The notes under the pieces: model-generated
Told to the model about the DNA's origin: nothing
The model's database searches: none
What the model saw: the letters and a program-made list of their open reading frames with translations, nothing else
Made by a program: the position numbers and the translations under genes
In this document: positions 4,701-36,210 of the stretch, in pieces
How positions within the stretch are numbered: the first letter of the stretch is position 1
Layout of the letters: every line of letters starts with the position of its first letter
Assembly (NCBI RefSeq): GCF_932294415.1
Contig: NC_065535.1
Span: forward strand, 84,589,862-84,653,861
DNA: 64,000 nucleotides
DNA from: Quercus robur
Lineage: Eukaryota; Streptophyta; Magnoliopsida; Fagales; Fagaceae
Direction of reading: 5' to 3'

Positions 4701-5371
4701 CAATCACTCATTATTGATTTATTATGTTGTAAACGTAAGATCAATCACATTTATTGCAACATTAATTTATTATAATGATTTTAGAGTAAAATTTGTACTA
4801 AATTTAACATTTTTCAAATCGTTAATACTAGCAAACAGTAATAAAGGAAGTTCTGAAATTTTCAAACTTAACTGATGAAAAGCATATGGATTTCTGTAAA
4901 TGGAACCTCTAGGGATAAAGGTCTCTTTCTTCTTGGACATATATCTTCTTGTCCGAATTGCTTCACGTATCGCGGCCCTTGCTTTAGCTAAACCTACTTC
5001 AATTGTCTTTAAGCTATTTTTCTTCAGGTCATAGAATATACATTAACAAAAATAAAAAATAAATTAAATTTCAAAGTACAGCTAGCAATGATTAAACAAC
5101 GAGCAATATCAATCATGAAATTTAAACAAAAAGTTAGCAAAATTTAGATGTTTCTTACTTTGATATTACCAGCCTTATATGTATTGCAATTGGTTGAAAG
5201 AAACACATCTTGGGATACTTGCTGTGGATTTGTGTGGTGGCTTTTTCTAAGATAGGAAGAAGAAAAGAGAGTGGAATAGTCTAAGTTTAAGGAAGAGGAA
5301 AAAAAGAGGAAGAAAAGAATTAGAGAAAATGGAATAAATACAAAAGATATGGAGCAGCTAAAGCCTGCCAT
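1704..5371 (-). CDS. Exostosin-family glycosyltransferase (GT47), copy alpha, intact
   Basis: Predicted type II Golgi membrane glycosyltransferase of plant family GT47 (exostosin domain); the sugar donor and acceptor cannot be told from sequence. Exons on the minus strand: 5159-5371, 4873-5021, 3977-4340 and 1704-2366, all with GT-AG introns, giving 462 aa. The start is the first in-frame ATG. A short cytosolic tail is followed by a hydrophobic anchor (about residues 8-27) and a stem. The exostosin domain runs from about residue 126 to the end, with [26 protein letters not shown] at the exon 3/4 border and [15 protein letters not shown] in exon 4. Exon phases and lengths match copy beta-prime (32,193-34,951), except a shorter exon 1 and an exon 2 that starts 3 bases later. 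The exon 2 acceptor CAG of the paralogues is CTG here and the next AG appears to be used, costing one lysine codon. No stop or frameshift is seen. Confidence 0.85.
2367..3976 (-). other. Intron 3 of GT47 copy alpha
   Basis: This 1.6-kb AT-rich intron is much longer than the matching intron of the beta copies (about 0.64 kb). I found no clear transposon ends in it. The open frames at 3282-3476 and 3613-3795 look like chance frames. Confidence 0.6.
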
Positions 5372-7200
5372 GGCTTCAGTTTTTTTTCTTCTTTGTCTCA
5401 CTCTTATGTAGGGTTTTCTTATCAAGAGAGATGAAGATATATGTGAAAGACCACATATAGGCTGTAAGAGATCGAAGTTGCATTAATGTTGCAAGCTTTA
5501 GTTTAGTTTGCCAACATTTGCTAAATCAAAATTTATATGGGGAAGTGTTTGACTAGTGAAAGGCCATTAGCATGGTCATGTGATTTACATTTAATTACAT
5601 TTGAAATAAAGATCGGTCGTTGATATCGATACTCATTGTATTTAACTATGTTTTTTTTGAGGGATATTTAACTATGTTGATAATTGAGTAAATTCGCAGC
5701 AAATTAATGCCATGGCGACAAAACCAAAAAAACGAATTTCAGCCACGAGTACGGGTGCTACTTCTGGTAGAATAGAAAGTCTTGGTAAAACCTGTTGTAA
5801 AATAGCGAAAGCAGAAGCTCAAATTCAATCAAATATTAGGAATCAAAAAAATTTTACTATATCAAATTTGGAAATTTGGGGTAATACAAATTAGTATAAA
5901 GACACTCTTATAAATCTAAATCTCAAATACATCAAAATAGCTCTTTCTTATAAATCCAAAACCAAGGGGCAATAAAACCTCTTTCACTATTTTAAATTGC
6001 AACCCACAAATTAATATCAAAGAATCAAACTATAAGAGGGCATGCCGAATAGAGAGCTTCTTTCACACACTTACGCCAAAGTCAGTTTCCAAATTGTCAT
6101 AGGAGGAGTTTTAAACCCAAAAAAAAAAAAAAATCTTATTTCAAATAAAATTTTAAATCAAATAGAGACAAGACTTATATAATTGATAGTAACCAAAAAG
6201 AATAAAAATTCCTCTTTTTTTTTTTAATCCAAAACCAACAAGGAGTCAAACTCCTTGATTCAAGCCATATGTCTACAAAACCATGCCAATGTTAACCCCA
6301 CAAGCATATGATCTCGCATGATGGTTGGCTTTACAACCACTCTAAGGAAACCTTATTATATATACCAGAGTTCATGAATCAAGTAACAGCTAAGAAAATT
6401 TCCACAGTGAACTTTCTTTAGTACTAGGAGCCTATAAGATATTGACTTAGTCAAAATCAGTAATCTAAACATGGACGCTACCATGTGTTATCATCGTTGC
6501 TCAATGTAAATAAGGGGTATTTGGTACGCTATTTCAAAAGAAATCATATGTTTTTAAATAACATTACACGTATTTTCATATACTTTTTCACCCACACATA
6601 TTCTCATAAATATTTTCAAATAACAAAACACATGTTTTTAAGTGCACGCACTAAACACTTCCTAAGCTTTTGAGTTTTGACTTTCACATGTAATTGATAA
6701 TTAATTGTCTATATCTCCTTGAGCAGTGAGCAAAGGTGACTGAGATTATGGCTTAAAAACTTTAAAATGCCTCAGCTGGTCGGTTCAGCATTTGCTCTTT
6801 TGTCACCTTTTCTCTGTATCATTTCTTTGGTTATAAACTGAGCTTATGGCTTAAAAAGGGCCAAAAATTCCGTCAAGAACGGCATTTGTTTTTTCAATCA
6901 AACCCCTAGTGATTCGTGAAGAGGGAAATTCTAATGCAAAAAATCCGCTAAGGTATTTCTCCCACTTAATTTAGAAATCTTGTTCGGATCCCCATTGGTC
7001 TATCAAATACTATAATAGAGTTATTTCTAATTACTTCACAATTGTGTTGTAAATCATACTTATAGGGAGGCAAATTAATTTGTTGCCCATAATTTTATAA
7101 TAATAATAATATTACTGCTATGGAATTTCTTTTTATAATAGAGGTATACGCATGGGGGGGGGGGGGGGGGGCGGGGAAGGCATATTATGTGAATTTGATT
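5372..7200. repeat. 5' flank of copy alpha, duplicated at 22.27-23.92 kb
   Basis: Upstream sequence of copy alpha. Several stretches recur in order upstream of copy alpha-prime: around 5,440-5,580, around 5,690-5,790, and 6,850-7,090, which matches 22,937-23,830 once a MITE is removed. This is part of the block duplication. It holds a G run (7,155-7,172). No independent gene is visible; the short frame at 5712-5894 has an A-rich, low-complexity sequence. Confidence 0.65.
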
Positions 7201-9123
7201 AAAAAGTAAAAACTGAGTTAATTAGGGAAAGGAACTCACGTTCCATTCTATTCCCTCCTATTAAACTTTCAAACAAGTTAGGGATAAAATCTTTTCACTC
7301 CATTCTCTCGTATTTTTCTTGTCCAAATACAAACAAGTTGTAAATGATATCATATTATCATATATATTATATAATAAAAGTTGGCTTTATAAGCCATGGT
7401 TGTGCCAAGTGATTTCACTAACTTATAGAATTTTTTTCTAAACTGTTGTTGCATTAAGTAACTTCACCAAAGAACTTCACCTAAGTTTCAGAAATTTAAA
7501 TTCTACTCTAACTAAAAATCTATTATCAAAATTTCAAAGCTTATATATATTCACCAATGCTCTTTCCATAGAATCCCTTTTGCACCCCATGTTTTTATTT
7601 TATTTTTTTCAAGTTGCAACTTAAGCATATGGATTTGTATATGATAGTTTTGATTAAATAAATTTATTTTACTTATTGTTATTTGTTTCTAAATTTGCAT
7701 GTATGGATATTATGTCAAAGGAAGTCTACTATAAAGAAGCAAAACAAGAGACACCCATATAATTAAGTTTTTGGTTTCTCTTTGGTAAGTTTTTTATTTT
7801 ATTTTTAAATTCTCAAGTTTTGAACTATTTTGTGTGTTTTAGGTTTTGGTTATTTTATATATTTAGTTTGTAAGTGTTTACATTTTTTTAATTGACTAAT
7901 ACTACGAAAAATTTGGTTCAAAACATGTTTTCATGTGTTGTAGTGCAATCTCATTCAAAGATACTTTTACTTATTGGTTGTTAAGACTTTATCAATATTT
8001 ATCAATTTTTGTATTTTAAAATTTTGTTTGCACTTTGTGTTAATTTCTTAGTATGCAGAATTCCTCCCATAGATCATATAATTTAAGGTTCCTCTAAACT
8101 TTTTCATTACCAGTTAAGCTAATTGAAACTCATATGTAAGCCTATCTTTAATTAACTTCTTTTTCATTTTTTTTTTTAAGTTGAAATTTGATTTGTTTTT
8201 CATTAATGAATTGGGATTTTGGCTTAATTTTGTTATAAAATATTTTAATCATTACATTTATTAGTCTTTTCATGTGTAATATTAATTTATGTGTTCTTAA
8301 AGGCTAAAACACAATATAATTAGAGACATTACTCAAGTTGTATAAATTAGAGTGTTAACCATTTGAATAAAATCAACACTAAAACAAATTATTTGAATAT
8401 CAAAATAAGACTTAAAAATAAAATTTCTTTTAGGTGTACAAATACAATTGATTTTTTAATCTTAAGTTTGGAATTAATTATTTTAGGATAACTTTATTTA
8501 TGCAAGTATTAGAAAATATTTAATTACTTGAATTCAAATCACCCTCCTCGTTAATAAATAAGAAATTATATAAAAAAAAATTAGAAAAGTTTTTATTGAT
8601 CATTTTAATTAGAGATATTATATATAAGGACAAATATACAAAATTATGCATTTTATATAATAATAATCATTCATTTAGTTAGAAATGAGTTATAAAATTA
8701 TGTAATAATAACTCATTTAGTTATTATTTCTCACAAAAATATATAAGAAAATTAATGACTAAAGCGTGCAACCCACGACACTTTCACTAATATTCTGAAA
8801 ACAAAATCAGTATTGATTTTACATTAATCAAATCTATTAGATGGGTTTATAGTGACATTGTTTTGGCAACCCTTAACATCTTTGTAGGGAAAAAATAACC
8901 TTAACAGAGAGAAGAGGAAGATGATTATTGTCATAAAAAAATTTCTCATATTCCCTACAGTTTCAATTTTTTAGCTACAATTTTTCCCACATTTCCCTAT
9001 ATCTTTATTTTCAATTATATCACTCTTAGATCCCACAATTAAATTTTAAAAAAATTGACTTAAATATTCAATCCAGTAAAAATTACTGATTTTGAAAATT
9101 TTAAGACAATAGAATCACCGGTA
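7201..9123. other. AT-rich intergenic sequence
   Basis: About 1.9 kb of very AT-rich DNA with no gene that I can support. The stretch near 8,760-8,790 has a GC-richer motif of a kind seen at transposon ends, but I could not define boundaries. Confidence 0.6.
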
Positions 9124-9132
9124 CAAGTTTCA

Positions 9133-9516
9133 TGGGGTAAATGAATATTTGTCCTTAATTTACAAACTATGTAGTAAAATGCCCATATTTTGAAATTATT
9201 TAGTAAAATACCCTTGTTTTTTAAACTCAATTTTAACAAAATTGAGTTATGTGTAAAACTCGATATCCTCAAAATCAAGATATATGTATATTTTTAAGTG
9301 GAACACAACATTATTAATGTCGAGTTTCACTTAAATTTTCAAAAAAATTTAAGTGGTAAAATATACATAGAACTCTATATTGCTAATGTCGAGTTCCACT
9401 TGTAACTTGATTTTGTCAAAATCGAGTTTAGAAAACAAGGGTGTTTTACTAAGTAGTTTCAAAAAATGACATTTTACTGCATAATTTGTAAATTAGAGAA
9501 ATATGTCCATTTCCCC
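9133..9516. mobile_element. MULE-type MITE with long inverted repeats
   Basis: A 384-bp foldback element. The two arms, about 140 bp each, are imperfect reverse complements and share AATTTACAAA, TAGTAAAA and ACCCTTGTTTT blocks. It is flanked by a perfect 9-bp target duplication, CAAGTTTCA, at 9124-9132 and 9517-9525. Nine-base duplications with long terminal inverted repeats point to the Mutator superfamily. There is no coding capacity. Confidence 0.8.
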
Positions 9517-9539
9517 CAAGTTTCACTCTCAACTAATAA

Positions 9540-10197
9540 GGGCTTGTAACACCAGTTGAACATAATTACAATTCAAACCTTGGGGACAGCCCTCACGATC
9601 TTGCTCAAATTCGAAGTCATCGTCGAATCCTTTCCGGAACCGAAACCAATCGACCTCCCATAGTCGTCGAACGTGGGTGCCCACGTCGAAGACTTCGGCG
9701 CGGTGCCCCAAGCCCCGTACGGCTCCACCTTGCCACCTTCATCGCGAATCGAATCGTAGTGTGGAGACTCCTCCGATCGCTTCCCATACGGATTGGACCC
9801 CAAATCGGATCGGCTCCGACCAAACCCTCCGTACCTGTCGTCGAAATACCCACCGGCGTAGTTGAATTTCATTGGAGATTTGGGTTTTTTTTTTTTTTTT
9901 TTCCTGTTGTGGACTGGTGGTGGTGGTGTTGTGGACTGGTGGTGGTGGTTGTGGGTGGGGCTGATGGTAGAGTGGTTGTGGAGCTGTGGTTGGTGATGTG
10001 GTTGTTTTTTTTTTTTGTGGTAGGATATATTATTTTATTGTAATGGTTATATTATTTTATTGTGATGTATATATTATTTTATTGTGTTGAAAGCTAAAAT
10101 AGATCCACTGCTGTAGTATGTGTGTAGGTAAAATAGATAAAGTGACTTTTTGTATAGCTAAATAGCTAAAATTTTGCCTCCACTGCTGTGAATGCTC
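9540..10197. mobile_element. Candidate gene-capturing (Pack-type) TIR element carrying a FREE1 fragment
   Basis: The right end, read inward on the minus strand, is GAGCATTCACAGCAGTGG, with TTA just outside it (10198-10200). The same terminus appears at the element at 11,872. The body has GT-rich simple sequence (9,905-9,990) and A/T runs, and carries a protein-coding fragment at 9,579-9,872. The left end is uncertain: GGGCTTGTAACACCAGTTG near 9,541 resembles the right terminus, but its flank reads TAA rather than TTA. A three-base TTA/TAA target is typical of PIF/Harbinger-type elements. The family assignment is an inference. Confidence 0.5.
9579..9872 (-). pseudogene. FREE1: Captured fragment of FREE1/FYVE1 (ESCRT component)
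   Basis: The minus-strand reading gives 98 codons closely resembling the middle of the plant-specific ESCRT protein FREE1/FYVE1, just before its FYVE domain. Diagnostic stretches are GRSRSDLGSNPYGKRSEES, GGKVEPYGAWGTAPKSS, FDDYGRSIGF and SKIVRAVPK. The reading stops making sense right after AVPK, where CCCAAG|GTTTGA looks like an intron donor. The piece therefore seems to have been copied from genomic DNA with the start of an intron attached. It lacks the FYVE zinc finger and the C terminus, so it is a fragment and not a gene. It sits inside the candidate transposon at 9,540-10,197. The match is from memory of the Arabidopsis protein and should be aligned. Confidence 0.75.
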
Positions 10198-10441
10198 TTA
10201 CCATATATTTGTTTTACATTTCATATAAAATAACAAAATTTTTAAGTGGAAAAATATACCAAAATTAGTAGATTATAAAATGGAACACCAAAAGTGGAAC
10301 AAAATATTTGTCTTTTGAAATTATGGTAGGTATATATGGGAAACATTATGGTTCTACCAAAAGTGAAAAGTGAGCATAACTTGTGAATTCCAAGAGGACT
10401 TATTTCTCTCTCTCTCTCTCATCAATAAGATTAATTTATTT

Positions 10442-10792
10442 GTAGCCAAAAATTACAACCTTACTCATTAATTTTTTTATTAAAGGTGAATTTTGACAAA
10501 TTCACCATTAGATTACATCTTTTTCTTATATCATCCATGCTTACAAAATTTCAAATAAATTAAAGATTAATAACCATGTCATCAATAATTATTTAAATTC
10601 CAAGTTTTTGTAGTTTAAAATTATGTATAAAATATAAGCTTATAGATCATATAGTAAATAATATCCGATTGATACAAAATTTGACATGTGTATTAAAAGC
10701 ATAAAAAACATGAAATTCAATGGTTAGATTTTCAAAATATATAATGATGTTTATTTTATTATGTAAGGTTATAATTTTAGGTTACAACCAAT
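10442..10792. mobile_element. MITE, same family as the 18.7-19.6 kb cluster
   Basis: Imperfect inverted ends: about 30 bases starting GTAGCCAAAAATTACAACC on the left, and the complement of GTAACCTAAAATTATAACC on the right. The interior shares long stretches, such as AAGTTTTTGTAGTTTAAAAT, with the elements at 18,745-19,575, in the orientation of the second one. No coding sequence. Confidence 0.5.
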
Positions 10793-10984
10793 TTTGTAAC
10801 TAAATTTTGTCCTTAATTTACCCCTCACACACTTATTTTTTTGGAGAGATAGTTTCAACTTATAGTATTTATTCTTTATGGTAGCTTTTTATCGTTAGAG
10901 TAAGACACCAATTCAATTTTTGGTATAGGGCGGAATCAAACACTAGATCTCTTATTTGATGACAAAAAAAATTTATCAATTGAT

Positions 10985-11600
10985 CAAGCAACCAAATATT
11001 GCATCCAAATTCTCCTTATGGGATAGATCAAGCAATGCTATTGAGTCATGCATATGAGACTGTTGGCATATTTAGTGAGTTATGAAAAGCTAAAACATTT
11101 CTCCCCACTAATATTCACTCAAAAAACAATAAGGAATTGAAAAGTTAGTCTCCATTCCAAATCTCATTACTGGATCAGTTCCTTTACTTCAGATAAAATG
11201 GGTGTATGAATATGTTAGTAGTAGATACGATAAAAATTATTAAATCTTCAAAAAGAAAATTGTATGCTTCTATACCATCTATTTAATGGAATGAAACTCC
11301 ACCTAATAATCACAACTAAGCATGGCTTTAATTATGCGCACTCTTCACACAGTAAAAATCCACATTTTACGATCCCCATTTTAGGCGGATAAGAAAAAGT
11401 TTTTCAGGTGAAGATTACATAGGGATTCCATAAGATTATCTTCCTCAATCCCGAAGGAATAATAAGCGGTTTCAACACATTATGTTATGCATGTGATCTC
11501 GAATTGTAGCGAGTCTTGGATCACTAAACAAAATAAAAACCCCCAGCTCTAATAAATTGCTTCAAATACAAGTTTCACTTTTACAGAATTTAATTAATTA
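10985..11600. repeat. 3' flank of pseudogene beta, duplicated at 31.38-32.0 kb
   Basis: Sequence from about 11,015 (CTTATGGGATAGATCAAGCA) to 11,582 recurs in the same order at about 31,405-31,990 downstream of copy beta-prime, with small indels. This supports block duplication over more than the gene itself. No gene is seen. Confidence 0.75.
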
Positions 11601-11871
11601 ATTATTATTTTTTTTTTTTTTTGGAATGGTCTAGCAAGATATAGTAGCACTATGGTGTTCAGTGTCAGTTTGGGAACAACTACTTAACTTTTTGCTGAGA
11701 GTATGTGAAAGTGCGCTAAAATATACTTATATTTGGAAAATGTAAGGAAAAAAAAAAAGATTTTAAAAAGTTGTACATAAAAATTAAAAACTAAAAGTTA
11801 AATTTATAAGCTCAATATTGATAACCTTGATACTACTGCTTGAAGTTTTTTCGTGAAATTCAGCCCCCTTA

Positions 11872-12737
11872 GAGCATTCACATAGATGGTGCTAAAAAAT
11901 ATAGCTTTTAGCTCCTAAAAAAACTATTTTATCTATTTTATTTTACAATTTCACAACTTACTCAACATCAATGCTCTTATTTTTCATAACAAAGCTAAAC
12001 ATTATTCATTTATTTATTATTTTCTCTCTCTCTCTCTCTTCTTCTTTGTCTCTTCTCCCTCACTTCAACCCAAAGCCACCACACCCACAACCCCATAGCA
12101 ATCAACACCACCACAGCACCACGTCTCCCTCTCTTCAACCCACAACCACCACACGTACTACCCCAAAGCAATCACCACCACCACAGCACCGCATCTCCCT
12201 CTCTTCAACCCATAGCCACAAAACCCACAATCCAAAATCAATCACCACCACCACAATCACCAACAGATCGAAGCCCACAAACCCACTGATCGGAAACCCA
12301 CAAAACCCAACAACCCAAACAACCATTGCACTAGCACTACATGTTCGGTTCTCAACCGCCACCGCATAGGCATGCCGCTGACCACTAATCACTCTCTATG
12401 CATTTTTTTAATAGAGAGTTTAAGTTAGAGAAGAACAAGAGAGGAGGAGAAGAAGAGAGCAAATTGGAGAGAAGAAAGAGAGAGAAACAGAGGAAAAAGA
12501 AGGAGAAGAAGGAAGAGAGAAACAAGATTATTTTTTAAGAAAAGAAGAGAGAGAACAAAATTAAAAAAAAATATTTTTTATAACTTTGGAGTTACAGTAA
12601 GCTGTCATTTTTGAAAGTTTACTGTAACTTTGATGCTAAAAGTTTTAACTTTAGCACCATCAATGGAGTATGCATTTTGTTATTTGTGGTGCTAAAAATA
12701 ACTTTTTAGCAATATGACAGCATCATTGTGAATGCTT
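11872..12737. mobile_element. 866-bp non-autonomous TIR element (TTA target, PIF/Harbinger-like)
   Basis: The ends GAGCATTCACA and TGTGAATGCTT form an inverted repeat with one terminal mismatch. TTA lies on both sides (11869-11871 and 12738-12740). The interior has a CT microsatellite, two tandem copies of a roughly 76-bp CCACAACCACC-rich unit (about 12,070-12,215) and a GA-rich right arm. The Thr/Pro-rich open frame here is a by-product of these repeats. The matching position in the beta-prime flank (about 31,990) lacks the element, so it probably arrived after the block duplicated. Confidence 0.65.
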
Positions 12738-13241
12738 TTAGAAGTCTGTAATGTTTGTTATATTTTGAACAAAGGGACTTGTGGGTCTGAAAAAGTCTGC
12801 TTTTTTATTGAGCTCCAAGATTTAAACGCGCATGATTGCTTTCTACTTTTATATCAAGATATCAATGAGTTTTTTAGGTGTATGCATGATTCGAACTTAG
12901 ATCCCTAATTTAAAGATAAGAGACGTTATCAATTCACTACTCATGTCAAACTTTATAAGGGTAATTTATGACTAGGCTTATGTTTGAATGAGGTTCTTTT
13001 TCTAGCTTATTTTTGTTTATTTGTTTAGGCATAACTTTTTAAAATTTTACTTTTCTTTTCTAAGTACAACCGTAATTCTACGCAATATTTTTATTGTTAA
13101 TAAATGGGCACCAAAAATTACATTTCACTGAACAACTAAAAGTTACATAGTTGGCCAATGTGATCGAATTGCTAGTCCAGATTCTCAAAAAAAAAAAAAA
13201 AAAAATTGCTAGGCTAACTAAGATTATGTATCCCCATCCAA

Positions 13242-16200
13242 TTAAGTAGGAAGAGCAAAATTTAGTCTCCTCAACCACACTGAGTGAAGCACCATGTGAA
13301 TAACATCAAATGGCTTAGCAGGCCTATTTAGCACAAAATGCTTTGGACTTTCAATACCTTTTTTTGCAGTTTTAAGTACTTCTCATAGGGTATCCCTTGT
13401 AATATTGTCTTGATCTCAGGTATCCTCTCCACTGGAATTTGTATAGAAAATCGGCTCCAATTAAGGACATCACTAAAAGGTAAATAATAACTATCAGAAA
13501 TTATCACAGGGACACATCACATGTAAATTGCTTCCACAATTCTAGGACTTGCCACTTCAAATCCACCAGGGCATAAGCAATACTAGGCCTGGCCCATTAC
13601 TTTGGTGTAATTGCGGCCTTTTGGGAGGTACTCATGGACTTGTACATCACAATCTTTGTCCTTCCAATGCTTGAGTAGGATTTTTCGAATTTGTCCACGG
13701 TCTCGACTGCCAAAGAAGGCAAGGATTGGACGGTTGTTTGGGGCTTGGCCTTGGTGAGGTGGGCCAAGTGTTCCAAACCGTAAGTAAATTTCAGGTATTG
13801 AGACATCTCTTGAAGGTCGGAATTCTTCAGAGGTATTGGCATTGCAGAGGACCTTCATGAAGTTCTTGAAGAGCTGAGGATTGAAATCTGACACATCTAG
13901 TGCCTGAATTATGAAATAGGAATTTCAACATTAGAAGAACATTACTTGACTAACAATCTAGTCAATATTGAGGAGGCTTGAACTTAGCAAGTTTTAGTTA
14001 TTTTAGGGTTTTTATTTTGGCTACAAGAAAAAAAAAGAGTTTACTAGACACAAGATGGATACCAACTCTTTTTTTTTCCCCTCTATTTTTTTGCAATAAA
14101 TAAGTTCAAAGATGTAAATTTTTAAATAATTTTTTTTCACAAACTGATAAGATGATATGTTATAATAAGTACTAATAAAAGTATCATTTGTAGGCTTATA
14201 TAAAAGTGATATTGCTTCAATATCAACTTATCACCTCAAAAATTAATCATGAAAAATTTGATGTTCCAAGAATTATTGTACACACTTTAAAGTAAAATGT
14301 ATATTGTAATCCCTAACACGAAAAAAGATTTAGTAAATTCATCATTTGGCCTTAGCTTAGCATGTGTATTTTGACATTCATGAAAAGCCTTACTTCTTCT
14401 TGAGAATGCAATGTATATATACAGAAACAATAGATACGTGATCTTCAAAAAATCAAAAAGCTTCATGTGCCCCCAAGATACCATACTTAATTAGCAAAAG
14501 ATAGACGATCATCACTAAGAAAACAATGATCTTAACGTACGTACCCAATCATGACATGGGAGCATGAAATGGTCAGCACCACTGCTTCTGTTCCAATAAG
14601 GGTGCTTATCTGCTACGATCTTAATGCAGTCAATTACAATCCTTTGCAGTCGATCACGATAGTAGTCAGTTTGCGTGGTGATAGGCATATAAACATATTT
14701 GACAATGTTGAATATGCTAAAGGGCATGGAAAATACGTGTGCCTCTTCGGGATGGCTAGCCCTGAAGGGGCTTTTATCCCTTTCTATTTCATCGATGAAT
14801 TGCCCTTCAATGGCGTATACGTGGTTCAGTGGCCCATCGTGGACCAAAGGTTGCTCTCCTTCATTGTAGGTCCACACCTTGAACCTCTTCACCATCTCTA
14901 TGTGGCTCCTGAAGTGATTACATATAAATAAACTTTGTTACTAATCCATATATTTTTTTGCACATGAATTTATATTTCTTTTTTTTTGATAGGCATGAAT
15001 TTATATTTCATTCAGAAAGAATTGACTCATTGAATCATTGAAAACCCAAAGTACAATTATAAGGTAACATTAATATCTGGATCATAGTAAAAGTAGACAA
15101 CGGCTTATATGTCTTGAATTGTTTGGAAACAAGAGATATATAGATGTGTCTTTCGAAGACTTACCAAAGAATAGTACAGAGAAAATGTCAATTGGAAATG
15201 AATTCATCTCTTGTTTTATGTTAAATAATAAATATTACACTATATACTGTCAGATACTAAAGATAAAATCTTAATTGTGATGTGGATTAAAGTAACTTGA
15301 ATGTCGTAAACTTAATTGATGAAAAGCATATGAATTTCTGTAAATAGATCCTCTAGGGATAAATCTCTCTTCCTTCTCACTTGTATTGTGATGCTCCAAT
15401 TTGATTGATTGTGTCAGTGTGTGAGTGTGTGATAAGTCCCACGTCGGGTATTTATTGGGTAGATCTGGGCTCTATTAACAATTGCAAGATGTCTCAATTG
15501 TGACTAGTCCTTTTGAGATATAGCGCAGATGTGGCTAGCGCTTTTCCTTGGGTCGTTACATATGGTATCAGAGCCGGCCCGGTAATCTCATGTGAGCTCA
15601 GAGACATTACCCCACAAAGTGGGCCTTAACGAGGACATTAGGGATTTTAATGTGGGAGATTGTGATGTTCCAATTTGATTGATTGTGTGAGTATGTGGGT
15701 ATGTGATGAGTCCCATATCGGATATTTACTAGATAGATCTGAGCTTTATTAACAACTGTAAGGAGTCTCAATTGTGACTAGTCCTTTTGAGGTATAGTGC
15801 AGATGCGGCTAGCTCTTTTCCTTGAGTCGTTACATGTATAAATCCTTGACTGAATCGCTTCACAAATTGCAGCCCTTGATTTAGCTAAATCTTCTTCAAT
15901 TTTCTTTACACTAGTTTTCTTCTGTTCAGAGCAAAAATATTAACCACAAAATTCAATGGTATAATCATTATATTACAAACAAGTGAACAAAGATAACTTC
16001 ACTCGAAGAACTATAATTGCTCTTACTTTGGTACTACTAGCCTTGTGAGTATTGCTTTTATTCATAGCATAATTTGAAAACTATCTTGGGAAAATTAGGG
16101 TTGTGTCCTTGGTTTGTCTAAGATTGGATGGGGTGAAAAAAGAATAAAAGTGATTGGAATGGTACTCTACGGTTAAGGCAGAAGAGGAGAAGAAAGAAGG

Positions 16201-17343: not shown

Positions 17344-17346
17344 TTA

Positions 17347-22273: not shown

Positions 22274-22316
<43 letters not shown>

Positions 22317-24200: not shown

Positions 24201-25084
24201 TTTAGAATTATATACATTCTTGAACAAATGTGTATGTCAAATATATAGAATTGTGTGTATTCTCTAAAAATATTATATAAATTGAATATACAAAATTGTG
24301 TACATTATTTGAAATTATATATGAGGAGTATACAAAATTTTGTACATTTTTTTGAAAAATTTTGTTCCTCAAATATATAAATTATATACATTTTTTTGAA
24401 ATTGTGTACGTTAGATATACAGAATCATCTCCATTCTTTAAAACCAATGTACATTGAATATACTGAATTGTGTATATTGAATTGTGTACATTCCTTGAAT
24501 TTGTGTTCATTTTTTTTTATAGGAGTTGTGTTCATTGAATATACAAAATTGTGTACATTTTTTGAATTTGTGTACGTTGAATGTACATAATTGTGTACAT
24601 TATTTGAAGAGCTATGTATGTTGAATATACATAATTTTGTATAATCTTTAAAATTGTGTACGTTGTATATACATAATTATGTTCATATTTTAGAAATTGT
24701 GTACAATGACTATATAGAATTGTGTACATTCTTTGAAAATTTATGTATGCTGAATATATAAAATTGTGTATGTTGAATATACATAATTGTATTCATTCTT
24801 TAGAAAATTGTGTGCATTAAATATATAAAATTGTGTACATTCTTTTAAAAGTTATGTACGCTAAATATATAAAATTATGTATATTATTTAAAATTGTGTA
24901 CGCTAAATATTTAGAATTGTACATGTACGTTATTTAAAATTATGTACATTGAATATACAAAATAGAGTATATACTTTGAAAATTTATGTACATTGAATAT
25001 ATAAAATTGTGTATATTTTTTAAAATTGTGTACATTGAATATACTGAATTGTGTACATTATTTGAAATTATGTACTGTGAATAT

Positions 25085-26648
25085 TGTGGACGCAAAGGAG
25101 TCAGAGGAGTCACCACCTAGTTTTTGCAATGGCCTAAGAACCATATATATAGCATCCTCTCGTGGGAGGACTTTTTAATCTTACTATTAGAGATATGGGT
25201 TCGGAGTTAAGATACGGTCTTAGGAAGGTGTTAGACACCCAAAACCGTCCAATCCTAAAATTGGCTTCCCATCATTGTGTCTTATGTCTTAACCCTATTA
25301 AAGGCACATTCAATATTGTTATTTAACTCAGACACATACTAACATTCCTTTAACAATCAATATGGCATCAATCATCCCAAAAGACCTAATCATACGTCTA
25401 TCATGCTTACAAACAAAGACCTACCATTCATCTAATCATGGAATCACATATCAAAGGTCCTAGCATTCATCTAGCATGGTATCAAAGCATTCATCACATC
25501 ACCAACCTTAATAATACATCTAAGCATGCTTTATCACAAGCTCCATGTTATTCATCCAAGGCAACAATTATGACAAAAACACAAATATAGAAAGATCTAA
25601 GCAACATGTGATTGTATCTATACATTGGAAATACTCATCTAAACATGCATGTTCATATACATTATCAAAGCAAGATCATATCACAAATGCATGAACATTA
25701 CAAATGCATGATTTACCCTTACTTACCTTGCAACAACTCAGTACTTGTGGCATCATGCATGAGCATGTGAATGCATGTTCATAGCATTAAAGCAATAAAA
25801 CCCTAATTATAACATGTGAAAGCAAACAAACAAATAACATGTGAAACAGAGACTTTGAAAGCATAAAAACATGGAAAAAGAAGCTAAACAAGACAAACAT
25901 GTAAAGGCAGAATAAAAAACAGATAAATAAAATTAGAGTTTCTAGGCAAGTTCATACGCATGCATGAACAAGGCTGTGTGTGCATAAGCAAGCCTGCGTG
26001 CGCAAGCAAGATTATGCGTACACAAGTTTCTATCCAAAAACTCTTCAAACTTGATTTTTGACTATTCCCCTTAGTCAAATCTATTCATAATTAAATAAAT
26101 GGTGATTAATAATCTTAAACTCAAAGATCAAGGTAAAAAAAGGCCCTAATCAAAAGAAAATTGACTTGAGGGTGTTTTGTGAAAAACTCTCTCTTTGATT
26201 CACTATTTCTAGTGAATCTTAGTGTTTTCTCGTGGAACTTTTGTATATTTTAAAAATATACCATGTAAGGCTACTTATAGTGTGAAAGAGAGGGTTTGGA
26301 ACGACTCCCAGACGATGTGGGATTCGTTCCAAACCTTAACATAAATACAAAAAACTTACCTTGTAGAGTTTTTAGAAATTGCTATGTGTGAGCAAGATCG
26401 GGCCTACATATGCATGCAAGAAGTTGCATATGCAAGCTGATTCTTGCGTTCGTATAGCGAAAGTTTCTTTTGGCCTTATTTTTCAAAAATAGGTTTATTT
26501 GCTCATTAAAAGTTATATTTTTAATTTTAACACTTCGCAAGTCAATTTAACTTTTGATTGGGTCCTAAATCAACCTTAGGTCTTAGAATTCAACATCATT
26601 GGAGAATGGGGGCCCAAGTCATAAGGGATACAAAATGCGGTGTCTACA
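25085..26648 (-). mobile_element. Solo LTR (Gypsy-like), 1,564 bp
   Basis: Begins TGTGGACGC and ends GTGTCTACA on the plus strand, with a perfect 5-bp duplication AATAT (25,080-25,084 and 26,649-26,653). Removing it restores a normal minisatellite unit. No PBS or coding region is seen, so it is a solo LTR left by recombination. It shares the TGTTAG-CAC and GTC(A/G)CCAC blocks with the LTR at 52,720. Strand is inferred from the usual TGTAGACACC start of such LTRs. Confidence 0.9.
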
Positions 26649-27224
26649 AATATACATAATTGTCTACATTCTTTGAAATTGTGTAACTTGAATATACATA
26701 ATTTTCTACATTCTTTGGAATTGTGTGTGTTGAATATACATAATTGTATTTATTCTTTGAAAAATTGTGTAGATTGAATAGACAAAATAGTGTACAATCT
26801 TTGGAATTGTGTATATTGAATATGTAAAATTGTGTTCATTTATATGAAAAATTGTATACATTAAATATACAAAACTGTGTATACTCTTTAAAGTTATGTA
26901 TGTTGAATATACAAAATTGTGTACATTTTTTTAAAAGTTGTGTATGTTAATTATTCAGAATTGCATACATTATTTGAAAATTTGTGTACATTAAATATAC
27001 ATAAATGTGTACAATCTTTGAAATAGTGTACGTTGAATATATAAAATTTTGTAAGTTTTTTGAAAATACAGAATTTTGAACATTCTTTGAAATTGTGTAT
27101 ATTCTATAATAAAAAAAATTATACATTAAATATAAAGAATTGTGTACAATCTTTGAAGTTGTGTATGTTGAATATATAAAATTTTGTAAATTCTTTGAAA
27201 ATACAAAATTTTGAACATTCTTTA

Positions 27225-28081
27225 TGATAGTTTTTAGACCCCTTAAAACACAATTGATTTAACCTAGGTAATTAGCCAAGTTGTTACTTAGTCCAATTTA
27301 ACAAATCTAGGTTATCACAATCACAAAGATCATATCATGCTAAGCAGCGGAAAGATAAATAACACAAGATATGATCACCCAGGAAACCAAACCAGTAAAA
27401 ACCTGGGGAGGATTTGACCTAGCTATCCTCAAGGTAAACTTGAATCCACTATCTTGAAAGAATCGAAGTTCATACAATAAGACTTACAAGGCCCCACGCT
27501 CGACTTCTTATTGCTACCAACCAGTAGAACTTACTGACACGACCACGTGCAAGCTCCGAATCCACAGACTCCTTCTTTCTTGGATTCACCACCAGATACA
27601 AGCACACCCGCTTGTGTTTTCTTTAAGCTTCAATGGAAGCAACCGAGTTGATCATCAAGGTGTAGATAAAATCTTCTCCTTGAAAACCCTAAGTTTGTGT
27701 AAAGGAAAGCTCCTCTAGATCTCACAAGAGATTTACACAAACCGCAATATGAGCAACACTAAAACGTGGCTAGGGTTTGCCTTTTATACTTGGGACAAAT
27801 TAGAAAACCCTAAAACGTTTTAAACAACTAGGACTGAGTTGGAAATCTGCAGAAAAAAACATTCTGCCCGAGATTCGATCGATCGAGCCTAAGCTTCAAT
27901 CGATCGAGCCAGGCCGAAATGCATTAATCTTTTCTGCATTAGCTCGATTCCAACTTTACATAAAATACACAACTTTGAGCAAGACAAAAACACTTCTAAA
28001 CACATTATTTTGATCATGGTTTGCCAACAATACATATTAGAGTTCTAAATACATAAATACCTAAGTCTTTAGAACCTGACA
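27225..28081 (-). mobile_element. Solo LTR, 857 bp, probably Copia-like
   Basis: Begins TGATAGTTTTTAGACC and ends GAACCTGACA. Flanks CTTTA (27,220-27,224) and CTTTG (28,082-28,086) are a target duplication with one change. Removing it restores CATTCTTTGAAATTGTG, the minisatellite unit. A TATA-like GTATAAAAGG on the minus strand (about 27,784) and TCGATCGA repeats (about 27,877-27,907) lie inside. Orientation is inferred from the TATA position. Confidence 0.8.
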
Positions 28082-28299
28082 CTTTGAAATTGTGTATATT
28101 CTATAAAAAAAAAAAGTTGTATACATTAAATATAAAGAATTATGTACATTGCATATACAAATTTCTTACATTCTTTGAAAAGTTTTGTACATTCTTTGAA
28201 ATCATGTATGTTGAATATAGAAAATTGTGTACATTCTTTAAAAAATTGTGTACGTTGAATCTACATAATGATGAAAATTTGTGCATCTCTCTAAATTAA

Positions 28300-28640
28300 C
28301 CTGCTTTAGAGATAGGGTTAGATGCAAAGTTTGCTGTACATCTATTAAAGGAGGAGGGAAATCTAAATTGTAATGATTTCATTGTGGCTGACTGCAAAGA
28401 ATGGCTTAAAAGAATTCTGCTATTCAAAATTCATTACTATTATAGAGAAGTTAACAAGTGTGCAGATGCACTTACTAGGAGGGGAGGGTTTTATCTAAGG
28501 ATTTTTGTTGTTTTCTCTAAAATCCATAAGCAGATGCATATTTGCTACTTAGTTTAGACTCTCCTAGGACTTTGTATGATTGTAATATTTGTTTTAGTTT
28601 GTTCATTGTTTAGTCATTGAAATTTCTATTTTTACCAAAA
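28300..28640 (+). pseudogene. LINE remnant: C-terminal RNase H domain
   Basis: The frame 28,300-28,557 reads ALEIGLDAKFAVHLLKEEG, then VADCKEWLKRIL and YYREVNKCADALTRRG, ending in TAG. This is the C-terminal part of the RNase H domain (RVT_3 type) of plant non-LTR retrotransposons, with the usual REANxxADxLAR motif slightly changed. An AT-rich tail ending in TTTCTATTTTTACCAAAATAAG follows, like the 3' ends of such elements. Everything upstream of the domain is missing: it starts beside the minisatellite. Confidence 0.75.
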
Positions 28641-28755
28641 TAAGAAAAGGCAAGTGAAATTATCAACTTTTATCCTTAGAGAATAAATAATAATAGAGCA
28701 ATCTTATAAACATAAGAAATTTCACAATAGTTGAGTTGAAAAACCTTTATTAATA

Positions 28756-29767
28756 GGCAAAAATACACTTCTGGTCCTTACATTTTGGACCAATTCTCAT
28801 TTTGGTACCTACTTTTTGGTCGCACCTATTTCAGTCCCTAAAATCGAAAATTGTTTCTATTTTAGTTCCTGCTGTTATCTCAGTAACGAGAAAAGCAGAC
28901 GTAACAAACAAAGTGCACTACAGCTAAACTTCACCATTAAAATAATATTTTCCTAATCCTATGAGTTACTAGCCCCCATGCCTGGTCAACTTCCCACCAC
29001 CAAAATGACCCATGTGACCTTATCATCAACCACCCACATGTGTGGGAGGTTAGAAATAAAATCCCAAAATAAAAAAAAAAAAACCTAAATCCCTATTCTC
29101 ACCATCCAATTTAAGCTCACAATTCTCACTCATTTACCTAAAAAAAACCAAAATCCCATAAAGGAAGCACCAAAATCATTGAACTACAATACCGAAACCC
29201 CAAAATCCCAATCGAAAAATAGAAATCATTTAATCGAGGATTTGAAATAAAAGAAACACTATGATTTGAAGAAGCCATCCACTGGGAACAAAAATTTCCA
29301 AATCGAAATGAATAAACAATTCATACTCTAGGACATTAAAGTGAGATTCAGAGGTGCCATCCACTAGGTATCCCATTTAAAAAGGTAAAAAAAAAAAAAA
29401 AAAAAAGTTTTCTCACTCTCTCTCTCTCTCTCTAACTTTTTGTCTGTACTCATTCACTAGGAACCACTCATTTATATTATTTCTTGCTATGCTTTTACAT
29501 AATTGGTATTTGTATAATGTTTTTTGACCGTTTGTTGGTGCCTTTCTGTTTGCTATTTATGGGTCAAAGTTGTCCATGCGTTCCTTGCTAGCATGAGAAA
29601 GTGACTAAAATATTGGGTTGCTTTACACTATGTAAAATATTTTTTTGACTATCTATTTTATATTATTTACAGATTCTTGGGTAATATATTATGTCATGTC
29701 CTGTTGTTCATTCACTAAAACTGTTTATTGGCCTTTGGTTTTTTTTTTTTTTTTTTTTTTAAATGTT

Positions 29768-29817
<50 letters not shown>

Positions 29818-31114
29818 TTAGCAGGCTATTATAAAATGCCTAGGGTGAATCGAGAAGGTGCATTATTCCACCTGATTGTGGATGATGATGATGATGCAAT
29901 GTTCACGACAAACTTGGTAAATGGTCATAAAGAGATTCATGTATTTGTTTAGCATCTAGTAGATGAGCCTATTCTATTTGATGAAGCTGGAGAGGAGGAG
30001 GAGGTTGAACTTGATCCCATGCATTGAGGTAGAAGTAGAGTCTATGGATGTAAAGCCTTAGTGATTAAGTGAACCTAAAGATGATTTTTATTATGGGTAT
30101 TTTGATAATCATGATGGTGATGGTGATGGTGATGGTGATTTGTAATCAGACTCAACTCTCACACATAAAACAAAGCCCAACAAACAGTTTTAATGAATAA
30201 ATAACAAGACAAGACATAATATACTACCCAAGAATCTGTAAATAATATAAAACGAATAGTCAAAAAAATATTTTGCATAATGTAAAGCAACCCAATATTT
30301 ACTTGCTAACAGGGAAAACATGGATCACCTTAACCCGTGAATAGCAAACAAAAAGGCACCAACAAACAGTCAAACAACATTTTACAAATACCAAATATGT
30401 AAAGCATAACAAGAAAAACTGTAAATGAGTGGTTCCTAAAGAATGAGTACAAATAGAAAGTTAGAGAGAGTGAGAAAACTTACATTTGAAAATTGAATAC
30501 TAGTGGATGGCACCTCTGAATCTCACTTCAATGTCCTAGAGTCTGAATCATTTATTCCTTTCAATTTGGGCATTTTCATTCCCAGTGGATGGCTTCTTTC
30601 AAATCACAGTGTTCCTTCCATTTCAGATCCTCAATTAAACCATTTTCATTTTTTCGATAAGGATTTTGGGGTTTCGATATTGTAGTTTAATGATTTTGAT
30701 GCTTCCTTTCAAGGATTTTGGTTTTTTAGGTAAATGAGTGAGAAGTGTAAGCTCAAATTGAATGGTGAGAATGGGATTTAGGGTTTTGTTTGTTATCTGA
30801 TTTGGGATTTTTTTTTTGACCTAACACACATGTGGGTGGTTGATGATAAGGTCACATGGGTCGTTTTTGTGGTGGGAAGCTAACCAGGCATGTGGGCTAA
30901 TGATATGTAGGATTAGTAAATTATTTTTTTAATGGTGAAGCATGACAATAGGGTACTCCGTTTGCCACGTTTTCTTTTCCTGTTACTAAGATGATGACAA
31001 GGACCAAAATAGAAATGGTTTTCAATTTTCAGGGACTAAAATAGGTGCAAATAGAAAGTAGAGACCAAAATGAGAACTAGTCCAAAATGTAAGGATCAAA
31101 TATATATTTTTGCC
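28756..31114. mobile_element. Mutator-like element with terminal inverted repeats near 0.95 kb
   Basis: The termini GGCAAAAATACACTTCTGGTCC (left) and its imperfect complement (right) begin two arms that match over about 28,756-29,735 and 30,150-31,114. Both contain the TGACCNATGTGACCTTATCATC block and the TGGATGGC block. Flanks TTATTAATA (28,747-28,755) and TTATTGATT (31,115-31,123) fit a 9-bp duplication with two mismatches. The central 0.4 kb has a TA microsatellite, then an acidic frame (29,850-30,090: DDDDDAMF, GEEEEVELDPMH) broken by stops, which may be the decayed start of a transposase gene. That last point is inference. Confidence 0.8.
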
Positions 31115-32192
31115 TTATTGATTCTTATACGGGTTCACCATTAACATCACATTTTTATTTATTGCTAATAATCTACCACATCGGCCAGGTGTGAAATTTT
31201 TTGTCCATAAATTTTTTTTTTTTGGGAATAATTAGTAGTTTGTACACCATTTACCTTTCTCTCTTAAAAAGAAGAAGAAGAAAAAAAAAACAATGTTGTT
31301 TGTAACTTTGTATGCATTATTAGACACGTTTGAGGTTAGTGAGGGATTTTTTTTTTTTTGGTTTCTTACGGCAAATGGGAGGGGAGGTATTGCAGCCAAA
31401 TAATTCTTATGGGATAGATCAAGCAATTCTACTGAGTCATATAAGACTATTGGTATGATTAGTGTGTTATGAAAAGCTAAAACGTCTTTTCCCACTAATA
31501 TTCACTAAAAAAAAATTAGGGAATTGAAAGGTTAGTCTCTATTGATTCCAAAGCTCATTGCTGGACGGTTTCTCTTCTCAGTTTATCTGAGGTAAAGGAT
31601 CTAATAGATATATGGTTATATTAGTAGTAAATATGATAAAAATTATTAAATCTTCGAAAAGAAAATTGCTTGTTTCTGTACCATCCATTTTTATGGAATG
31701 AAAGTCCACTTAATCACAACTAATCATGGTCTCCCAGCAAAAATCCACATGTAACGATCCCCATTTTAGGTGGATAAGAAAAAGTTTTTCAGGTGAAGAT
31801 CGTAGTATAGGGATTCCATAAGATTAATTATCTTCTCCAATCCCAAAGGAATCATCAGCGGTTTGAACACGTTGTTTTTTGCATGTACGTCTCAGTCTGT
31901 AGCGAGTCTTGGATCACTAAATTTCTTGACCAAAATTAAAATAAAATCCCTGGCTCTGATAAATTGCTTCAAGTACAAGTTTCACTTTTTAAAACTTTTC
32001 TTTTCTAGGTACAAGTTGCTAGGCTAACTAGGGTTATGTATCCCCAGCCAATTAAGTAGGTTTAGCAAAATTCACTGAACAACAAAAAGTTACATAGCTG
32101 GCCAGTGTGATCAAGTTGCTAAGCTAGATTCTAAACCAAAAAAAAAAAAAAAAAGGTTGCTAGGGTAACTAAGATTATGTATCCCCAGCCAA
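31115..32192. repeat. 3' flank of copy beta-prime, duplicated at 10.99-11.6 kb
   Basis: 31,400-31,990 matches 11,010-11,582. 32,000-32,190 repeats a GCTAGGCTAACTAGGGTTATGTATCCCC-like segment twice. No gene is seen. Confidence 0.65.
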
Positions 32193-34951
32193 TTAAGTAG
32201 GAAGCGCAAAATTTAGTCTCTTCAACCACACTGAGTGAAGCACCATGTGAATGACATCAAATGGCTTAGCAGGCCTATTTAGCACAAAATGCCTTTGCAC
32301 TTTCAATACCTGCTTTTGCAGTTTTAAGTACTTCTCATAGGGTATCCCTTGTAATATTGTCTTGATCTCAGGTATCCTCTCCACTGGAATTTGTATAGAA
32401 AATTGGCTCCAATTAAGGACATCACTAAAAGGCAGATAATAACTATCAGAAATGATCACAGGGACGCATCCCATGTAAATTGCTTCCACAATTCTAGGAC
32501 TTGCCACTTCAAATCCACTAGGGCATAAGCAATACTTGGTCTGGCCCATTATTTTGGTGTAATTGGGGCCTTTTGGGAGGTATTCATGGACCTGTACATC
32601 ACTATCTTTGTCCTTCCAATGCTTGAGTAGGAATTTTCGAATTTGTCCATGCTCTCGACCACCAAAGAAGGCAAGGATTGGGCGATTGTTTGCGGGTTGG
32701 CCTTGGTGAGGAGGGCCAAGTGTTCCAAATTCTAGGTAAATTTCGGGTATTGAAACATCTCTTGTGGGTCGGAATCCTTCTGAGGTATTGGCATTGCAGA
32801 GGACCTTCATGAAGTTCTTGAAGAGCTGAGGATTGTCATCTGACACATCTGGTGCCTGAATTATGAAATAAGAATTTGAACATTTGAAGAATCTAGCCAA
32901 TATTGAGGAGGCTTGAAGCGTGAAGTTAGCAAGGTTTTTTTTTTTTCCTCCTCCTCCCCGGGTGCTAATAAAAGTGGTATCACTTGTAGATCTATGTAAA
33001 AATAATATTACCCCCTGAAGTTATATTATGTTTGCATCAACAATTCATTCATTCATATTTTCTATTAAGTGCTATATAAACTTATCACACATATTTAATT
33101 TATCTAATAAAATAATGTCATGTCACATTATGAAAATGACATGATATTATTTTATTAGACGAACTAAATATGTACGTGTGATAAGTTTATATAGCACTTA
33201 ACAGAAAATATGGACAAATAGAGTATTGTTGATGCAAATGAAATATAATTTCAGGGGTAAAATCTAAAAATTCCTAAATTTTAGAGGTTTAGTTTTCACT
33301 TTAGCCTAAAATGTATATTATAGGCTCTAACATGGAAAATGACGTAGTCAATTCATCATTTGGCCTTAGCATATATGTATATTTTGACATTGAAAAGCCT
33401 TGTTTCTTAGGAATGGCAATGTATAGTGCTAATAAATATGTGATCTTCTTCAAAATAAGAAAAGCTATGTGCCCCAAAGAAAACAACAAGTTTAACGTAC
33501 CCAATCGTGACATGAAAGCATAAAATGGTCAGCACCACTGCTTCTGTTCCAATAAGAATGCTTTTCTGCTACGAACTTGATGTAGTCAATTACAATCTTT
33601 TGCAGCCGATCACGATAGAAGTCAGTTTTTTTGGTGATAGGCATGTAAACAAATCTGACAATGTTGGCTATGCTAAAGGGCATGAAAAATACGTGTGCCT
33701 CTTCGGGATGGCTAGCCCTGAAGGGGCTTTTATCCCTTTCTATTTCATCGATGAATTGCCCTTCTATGGCGTAGATGTGGTTCAGTGGCCCACTATGGAT
33801 CAAAGGTTGCTCCCCTTCATTGTAGGTCCATACCTTGAACCTCTTCACCATCTCTATGTGGCTCCTGGAGTGATTACGTATAAATAAACTTTGTTACTAA
33901 TCTTTATACATTTTTGTCTTTTATGAATGATTGTATATTTTGAACATCAATTTATATTTTATTTAGGGGTCTAATTAACAGGTATCCTTAGAATATAAGC
34001 TAATGGACTATTTTAAGTAAGTTTTAATATTATTTTTATAGGAAATATAAAAAAACTGTTTAAAAAAATCAATTACTTTTTTCCTTTTCCCATAAAAAAG
34101 TTTCTAAAAATGTTTTTTAAACCAATATCCTCAAAACATCAATTAACATTTCTCTTTATTTGGGAGGAATAGAATCATTGAATGCCCAATGTACAATTAT
34201 AAGGTAACATTAATGTCTGGAATATTGTAAAAGTAGACAATATCTTGAATTGTTTGGAAACGAGAGAGAGATATATAAATGTATCATTCGAAGATTACCA
34301 AAGAATATTACAGAGAAAATATTAATTTGAAATGAAATCATCTCATGTTTTATATTAAATATTACAGTATATACTGTCACATACTGAAAATAAAATCTTA
34401 ATAGTGATGTGGATTAAAGTAACTTGAATGCTATAAACTTAACTGATGAAAAGCATATGGATTTCTGTAAATGGATCCTCTAGGGATAAATGTCTCTTCC
34501 TTCTCACTTGTATAGTCCCTCGACTGAATCGCTTCCTGAATTGCTGCCCTTGCTTTAGCTAAATCTTCTTCAATTCTCTTTACACTAGTTTTCTTCTGTT
34601 CATAGCAAAAATGTCAACAAAAAAATTCAATGGTGATCATTATATTACAAACAATTGAACAAAGATAACTTCACTCAAAGAACTATAATTGCTTACTTTG
34701 GTGCTGCTAGCCTTGTGAGTACTGCTTTTATACATAGAATAATTTGAGAGAAAACCATCTTGGGAAACTCGCATTGGGGTTGTGTTTTTGGTTTTTCTAA
34801 GATTAAATGGGGTGAAAGAAGAATAAAAGTGAGTGGAATGGTACTCTTCGTTTAAGGCGGAAGAGGAGAAGAAGAGAAGGAGAAGGAGAAGGATAAGAAA
34901 AGATGGAAGTAACACTAAAGATATGGAGCTGCAGCTGAAGCCTGAATTCAT
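32193..34951 (-). CDS. Exostosin-family glycosyltransferase (GT47), copy beta-prime, intact
   Basis: Predicted Golgi type II membrane glycosyltransferase of family GT47; substrate not deducible. Exons on the minus strand: 34,697-34,951 (85 codons), 34,444-34,595, 33,501-33,864 and 32,193-32,855. Splice sites are GT-AG and phases consistent, giving 477 aa. Residues 9-30 form the membrane anchor, followed by a Ser/Thr-rich stem. Exon 2 encodes a basic helical stretch ([13 protein letters not shown]) and [16 protein letters not shown]. The exostosin domain runs from about residue 140: [41 protein letters not shown] (about 246-257), RPILAFFGG, then [19 protein letters not shown] with CVPVIISD. 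This C-terminal part is the usual nucleotide-sugar-binding half. It is the intact counterpart of pseudogene beta, and nothing is truncated. Relatives in Arabidopsis are annotated only as probable glycosyltransferases. Confidence 0.9.
33012..33257. mobile_element. Foldback MITE in intron 3 of beta-prime
   Basis: About 245 bp that folds nearly end to end. The left arm starts CCCCTGAAGTTATATTATG and the right arm ends CATAATTTCAGGGG-like; both share TTAAGTGCTATATAAACTTATCACAC. The loop is only a few bases, near 33,130. Pseudogene beta has no such hairpin in its equivalent intron, so it is a later insertion. Target duplication unclear. Confidence 0.8.
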
Positions 34952-36080
34952 GGTTTCAGCTCTTTTCTCTCACTTTTCTGCGGGAGAGAGAAAGATATGG
35001 GGGAAGATCATATGTGATCTAGGGGAGAAGTTGCATGCAAGCCTTTTGTAATCTTCTGCTACATCCAAATTTATAGAGAGGAAGATTTTGACTAGTAAAT
35101 GACCCCCAGCATAGTCATGTGACTTGCATTTAATTACATTTGAGTAAAAGACTGGTCACTGCTATCGATAATCACAATATGTTAAGCACTGATGAGCTTT
35201 TAACAGCCAAAACAAAAAAAAGTTGGCCACTTGGCCCTATATATGGGCGCTATCGGTGGAATAGTGTACCAAAAAATCCCATATTGCTATCATGATGTTC
35301 GTCACTGGAACTAAATAAAGGTCTGGGGGAAAAAGAAAACTGAGTTATATAAATCAATTAGAACTTGATTGTGCTGAAGTTCACTATAGTAAACCTTTTG
35401 GAACTACATGGTCGCGAATGATGGTTAGCTTTGATATATACTCTTGAGAAAATTTATAATTGTACTGTCTCTGTAAATCAAGCAACAGCTGACCATCATT
35501 CTTATGAGGAGCACGTATAATTTTAATTACGAGTTGTAATATTGCTAATAGAAAAAAAATTTGTTTTGACCCACTTGTTTTTTAATTTTTGATAACCTTA
35601 GATTTTTCATTAAAAATAAATTAACTACAAGGTTTTTTGCAACCCATATTTGTTAATTATGTAGCAAAATTATTAATTAATTATCAACTTATCTCAAATA
35701 TTATGTGATGTATGATATAACCAAGAAATGCATGCACCAAATCATAAAGTAAGAAAATAAGAAAACAATAGTTTAGATTTTGGACAAAGTGAAAAATCGA
35801 TGAAACAACTCTTCAAAGAAAAAAAACACTGTGGGGCAAAGACAATCCTACAGAAAAGCCACTACGAAGAAATAGTTAAAAATATATTGTATACATTAAA
35901 TATACAGATACTTTTGTAACCTAGACCCTTTATGTAACCTCCGATAATGACCTTTTTGACTTTCTACTGCAATAGTCCCAAAATCTCTGAAATCTTTTTA
36001 TGGTAATTTAATCCACGTGAACCAAAACCTCTAGCACACCCAAGGCACCTCCTTGTTGATTTCGTGTATAGGGAACCTCA
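34952..36080. other. 5' flank of beta-prime and AT-rich spacer
   Basis: Up to about 35,320 this matches the 5' flank of pseudogene beta. A minus-strand CATATATAG box near 35,237-35,245 could be a TATA box, some 290 bases before the start codon; this is inference. 35,400-35,490 resembles 6,300-6,400 upstream of copy alpha. The rest shows no gene. Confidence 0.55.
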
Positions 36081-36210
36081 TTGGAATAAAACTAAGTGCT
36101 TTCACAAAATAAAACACTCTCTGGCATAATAAGATGACTGAGCAAAGAATGAGGTTTTTTCTATGAAGTACAAGAAGAAAAGGCCGAAGGTTTTCTCTCT
36201 ACATAGCATA
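36080..36210. repeat. Right end of duplicated block (copy 2)
   Basis: Matches 21,650-21,791, with TTTTTTCTATGAAGTACAA and GGTTTTCTCTCT(A)CATAGCATA. The match ends at AGCATA (36,205-36,210), the same hexamer at which 21,786-21,791 switches into exon 2 of alpha-prime. Confidence 0.55.

Follow-up and report, generated by a model that had tools for sequence, protein, structure and literature searches.

The GT47 cluster and its neighbourhood

The window, that is, the whole stretch of 64,000 nucleotides analysed here (G000:C2:84589862-84653861), contains four related GT47 (exostosin, PF03016) copies. Each of them is on the minus strand, and they follow one another as the preliminary description had it: an intact alpha, a beta pseudogene, an alpha-prime fragment and an intact beta-prime. 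A fifth copy, gamma, lies intact just left of the window, and the cluster comprises three intact GT47 genes and two relics. The genes, the relics and the parts of them needed below are as follows.

1704..5371, minus strand: alpha, intact GT47 gene of 462 aa; exons 5371-5159, 5021-4873, 4340-3977 and 2366-1704
13242..16271, minus strand: beta, pseudogene, recognised from exon alignments and the lesion count against beta-prime
15387..15834, minus strand as read: TRIM-like insert of 448 bp in beta exon 2
21786..22267, minus strand: alpha-prime, exons 1-2 only, cut off within exon 2; identified by comparison with alpha, with which it groups (100/99)
22268..23899, minus strand: alpha-prime 5' flank, with segments collinear with alpha's 5372-7153
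32193..34951, minus strand: beta-prime, intact GT47 gene of 476 aa; exons 34951-34697, 34592-34444, 33864-33501 and 32855-32193
G000:C2:84579035-84583934 (window -10826 to -5927; L012, L013): gamma, open GT47 gene of 470 residues

Alpha and beta-prime had both been described as intact, and each was found to consist of four open exons with GT-AG borders (462 and 476 codons). All three intact genes belong to the GT47 family, with PF03016 scores of 193.4 bits for alpha, 204.5 for beta-prime and 201.7 for gamma at a cut-off of 33.4. In alpha, the domain covers residues 127-410, and since exon 3 begins at residue 121, the whole domain is encoded by exons 3-4. Beta-prime additionally matches the sequences of the solved exostosins 1 and 2 at residues 338-439 (E about 1e-14). 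Judging from what is known of the family, we take the three products to be, probably, Golgi glycosyltransferases for cell-wall sugars or polysaccharides. A dispersed repeat is located directly downstream of alpha, at 1300-1615.

A PF03016 search of the whole genome (785.7 Mb, 42 contigs) resulted in 111 exon-level matches, including those of alpha, beta and beta-prime. Matches were also found on an exon pair about 10 kb left of the window, and C5 carries a second tandem GT47 pair (G000:C5:72456000-72475400; L015, L016) that groups with gamma (87/87).

To the right of the cluster, an HlyIII-type gene (PF03006) is located at 45540-46274, and 62728-63519 matches PF00862, the sucrose-synthase GT-B domain, with 29.5 bits. 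No Pfam family matched 59953-60990, and the open frames within 59953-63519 were taken for exons of a sucrose-phosphate synthase. With its HlyIII-type gene and PF00862 exon right of the GT47 cluster, the window resembles the Arabidopsis neighbourhood At5g20260-At5g20280, in which the GT47 gene At5g20260 adjoins HHP1 (At5g20270) and SPS1F (At5g20280). Unlike the cluster described here, Arabidopsis presumably has a single GT47 gene at the place of At5g20260. Among the titles and abstract openings searched, no description of this locus was found, and none that mentions At5g20260 together with exostosin.

The array itself is an ordinary tandem cluster, and its main interest lies in the breakpoint. 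Tandem arrangements of GT47 genes also occur in cotton, where a survey of four species reports tandem pairs numbering 4, 3, 6 and 5, respectively (PMC6749837). The present case differs from such pairs in that it concerns a block of two diverged paralogues with a probable breakpoint inside an exon.

Evidence for a block duplication

A single duplication of an alpha-beta block had been proposed for this locus. For the collinearity test, 4501-21785 was compared with 21786-36700 on the plus strand, which yielded 21 matches. Nine of them share one order across 4881-21785 and 21786-36204 and define the two block copies listed here, together with a repeat in the tail of copy 1; no strand is assigned to these features.

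4881..21785: block copy 1, 16,905 bp, from nine collinear segments
21786..36204: block copy 2, about 14.4 kb, from nine collinear segments
20062..21581: about 1.5 kb of dispersed repeat within the copy 1 tail (at least 48 genome matches; 40 of 4063 candidates scored)

The block sizes of 16.9 and 14.4 kb reported before agree with the boundaries at 4881, 21785/21786 and 36204-36210. Position 4881, from which the duplicated range had been counted, is indeed a boundary of the block, but it cuts through the alpha gene (1704-5371). Four of the collinear segments connect alpha with alpha-prime (within 4881-7153 and 21786-23899, 71-83% identity) and four connect beta with beta-prime (within 10997-16619 and 31388-35319, 76-85% identity). 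The ninth is the tail, 21675-21785 against 36100-36204, with 80% identity, and all nine sum to about 5.0 kb of the 16.9 kb of copy 1. The 12 matches outside the chain comprise cross-paralogue matches (63-74%), short ones and a single off-order match of 72% (17039-17180 with 34008-34156). For exons 1-2, the cross matches of alpha with beta-prime and of beta with alpha-prime are 63-71% identical. Between the intervals 7154-10996 and 23900-31387, no mutual match was detected with nhmmer at E up to 0.01.

The trees agree with this order. A tree built from 5 DNA rows spanning exons 1 and 2 and intron 1 joins alpha to alpha-prime with 100/99 and beta to beta-prime with 98/98. A protein tree of exons 3-4, with 18 rows, unites beta and beta-prime (97/92), has alpha as their sister (100/99) and places gamma with the two C5 genes (87/87). 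The preliminary description had made its proposal depend on two points, and on both of them the outcome was favourable: each prime copy groups with its namesake in the trees, and collinearity is present in the flanks.

Noncoding K80, calculated with columns of less than 50% local identity left out, is 0.152 (0.114-0.205) for alpha/alpha-prime and 0.182 (0.150-0.214) for beta/beta-prime, so the ranges overlap; the tail has a value of 0.184 (0.114-0.270). Single segments spread from 0.113 to 0.175 in the alpha pair and from 0.112 to 0.294 in the beta pair. The dS of alpha/alpha-prime in exons 1-2 is 0.063, based on small counts (5.0/82), and that of beta/beta-prime across all exons is 0.156 (43.2/307). 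Since alpha and beta-prime differ by a dS of 0.583 compared to the 0.156 of beta/beta-prime, the alpha-beta split predates the block copy, and the split of gamma is still older (dS 1.3-1.5). Based on the collinearity, the tree topology and the overlapping divergence of both pairs, a head-to-tail tandem duplication of one alpha-beta block is well supported, as had been proposed.

The two relics and repeat X

Beta was confirmed to be broken, with lesions in exons 1, 2 and 4. Compared to beta-prime, its exon 1 contains three frameshifting deletions; a premature stop considered for this exon was rejected, as no stop occurs in beta-prime's frame. Exon 2 is interrupted by the 448-bp insert, exon 3 is without gap or stop, and exon 4 has a one-base deletion and two premature stops. 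The gaps at exon edges in these alignments are an artefact of where the exons were cut. The insert, which beta-prime does not carry, has two 174-bp terminal direct repeats that are 87% alike, TG...CA ends and the word ATACA flanking it on both sides. TRIM elements are defined by short terminal direct repeats, TG...CA ends, a 5-bp target duplication and small size, and judged by this anatomy the insert can be called TRIM-like. Next to the repeat, TRIM elements also carry a primer site that pairs with a tRNA, and a tRNA-Met-like stretch was spotted here by eye only. Dating the insert by its terminal repeats was rejected: with transitions exceeding transversions 6.7 to 1, their K80 of 0.148 does not order the insertion relative to the duplication.

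The substitutions were polarised within each pair. With alpha as outgroup, beta accounts for 34 nonsynonymous changes against 13 synonymous ones and beta-prime for 20 of each, from 449 codons with 17 ambiguous sites. With beta-prime as outgroup (118 codons, 4 ambiguous sites), alpha-prime has 18 and 4 and alpha 3 and 2. Under neutrality, 3.2-3.5 nonsynonymous changes would be expected for each synonymous one, and by this measure beta-prime (20:20) looks constrained and alpha-prime (18:4), which is near neutral, unconstrained. For beta, exons 1-2 (13:2) are close to the neutral ratio or above it and exons 3-4 (21:11) lie in between, which would fit a gene that died some time after the duplication.

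Alpha-prime retains only its 5' side and exons 1-2. Alpha-prime had been described as broken, and compared to alpha both of these exons are: exon 1 carries a premature stop, and exon 2 has two insertions of 2 bp each. The resemblance claimed for exons and both flanks of the copies holds for the exons and for the 5' flank of alpha-prime, but its 3' flank and its exons 3-4 are absent. A search with alpha's 1-4872 found no match in 16600-21785 (nhmmer, E up to 0.1). Genome-wide, at least 44 matches were obtained with alpha exon 4 (40 of 264 candidates scored), and the best among the matches listed after alpha itself are beta-prime with 80%, beta with 79% and the next with 72%. The remaining strong matches of this query fall on 1300-1646 downstream of alpha, which is mostly dispersed repeat. 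A run of 41 T (plus strand) lies directly upstream of the alpha-prime start codon, at 22276-22316. That alpha-prime is still transcribed and influences alpha through a non-coding decoy RNA is a far-fetched idea.

At its truncated end, alpha-prime is joined to a repeat, termed X, and the features of this junction are listed without strand.

21675..21785: repeat X tract abutting exon 2 of alpha-prime; copy 1 may have its right end here (80% with 36100-36204)
21786..21791: AGCATA, 6-bp microhomology common to alpha exon 2, the X of beta-prime's flank and the junction
36100..36210: X copy lying 5' of beta-prime; copy 2 may have its right end here

At 21785/21786, the homology of alpha-prime with alpha gives way to the X tract, with an overlap of only 6 bp. 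The X copy in beta-prime's flank is oriented like the junction tract and sits where copy 2 is expected to end. In one nhmmer alignment, X crosses the junction into alpha-prime exon 2 (21678-21863), which was taken for an over-extension. Nothing in copy 1 matched 35320-36099 with an E better than 3.5, which indicates that the tail has been rearranged. Nested in X is a dispersed repeat of about 1.09 kb (36278-37366), with at least 42 matches including the query itself (40 of 8135 candidates scored).

The use of X as a unique tract proving the breakpoint was rejected, since X is an old dispersed family, found at 4 places with the beta-prime version as query and at 16 with the L039 version, and its tree does not favour the pair. 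In this tree (14 rows, with two C5 members of the 16 places left out), the junction tract falls together with L047 (87/89), apart from beta-prime's flank. Forcing the two together costs 4.9 log-likelihood units and is not rejected (p-AU 0.20). By pairwise score, beta-prime's flank and L039 are tied for the junction tract (64 each), and the junction tract is best for beta-prime's flank (64 vs 59). The four-taxon site patterns, at 5 to 2 to 0, favour the junction tract with beta-prime's flank. In three members, namely beta-prime's flank, L039 and L040, the X sequence extends further than this junction. The likeness of L045 to X fades within a few bases of this point, so that some X copies may naturally end there.

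Origin of the truncated copy

The end of alpha-prime, inside exon 2, coincides with the junction between the two copies, so the fragment was most likely truncated from the outset. The tandem pair of alpha and beta would have been copied once as a head-to-tail block, with one putative breakpoint inside alpha exon 2 and the other in the repeat about 1.25 kb upstream of the beta-prime start codon, and the ends would have been joined via the 6 bp AGCATA. Such a microhomology suggests end joining or template switching, and not crossing-over between GT47 genes. Unequal crossing-over between alpha and beta was rejected, as the sequence next to alpha-prime exon 2 at the junction is that of a repeat instead of a GT47 gene. 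Alpha-prime would thus have lacked exons 3-4, and with them the catalytic domain, from the start, and no second full-length alpha would ever have existed. Both copies of beta would have been complete; one of them, beta, would have decayed through frameshifts, stops and the TRIM-like insert, and beta-prime would have been kept under selection. With moderate confidence, we regard the end of alpha-prime as the duplication breakpoint, its exons 3-4 as never present and beta as the only complete gene that was lost. The confidence is held at this level by the old, dispersed nature of X, by the X tree and by the fact that a later deletion would leave the same sequence. For the complementary loss in the preliminary description, this means that the end state of one functional gene per lineage stands, but that the process was probably a different one, given that alpha-prime ends at the junction.

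Alternatively, a larger block with complete alpha and beta genes may have been duplicated, and a later deletion at the junction may have removed the 3' half of alpha-prime, which would make the loss truly reciprocal. We consider this a serious but clearly less probable history. A deletion through microhomology would explain the junction equally well, and the tail of copy 1 is visibly rearranged. However, one extra event is required, no trace of alpha-prime's exons 3-4 or of its 3' flank turned up in 16600-21785 (E up to 0.1), and no remnant of its exon 4 was found elsewhere among the 40 of 264 candidates scored. Moreover, alpha-prime is without sign of past constraint (18:4), a count from exons 1-2 with little power. 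A rather unlikely explanation is the truncation of alpha-prime by a separate insertion or rearrangement that brought in another X member, with the likeness to beta-prime's flank being coincidental. Against this, X was detected at only 4 to 16 places in 786 Mb, yet one of these, oriented alike, is where copy 2 should end, and the junction tract is the top-scoring match of beta-prime's flank. X also extends beyond the junction point in that flank, L039 and L040, but L045 fades near it, as alpha-prime's tract does, and the grouping of the tract with L047 (87/89) instead of beta-prime's flank fits an unrelated member. Two independent single-gene events that duplicated alpha and beta separately could account for the alpha-beta intervals 7154-10996 and 23900-31387 not matching. 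Nevertheless, with the alternating order, flanks collinear on both sides of the interval and overlapping divergence, a second event is unneeded, and such a history is extremely improbable.

Partial, truncated tandem duplicates with microhomology junctions are a known kind of rearrangement. A duplication with its breakpoint in alpha exon 2 would resemble them in the short shared word at the junction and in having no long homology there; it differs in being old and overwritten by repeats, with a mechanism that we infer. Reading the end of alpha-prime as a breakpoint can turn a 'reciprocal loss' into one copy truncated at birth and the other lost later. Counts of gene losses after tandem duplication would be inflated if partial copies made by a breakpoint are scored as losses.

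Two further repeats were observed between alpha-prime and beta-prime. A diverged minisatellite with units of about 42-44 bp occupies 24180-25084, 26649-27202 and 28082-28280, and the self comparison gave no copy 1 match for it. An inverted repeat seen in copy 2 only (28755-29741 / 30167-31115) has arms of nearly 1 kb that are 81% alike and is possibly a mobile element.
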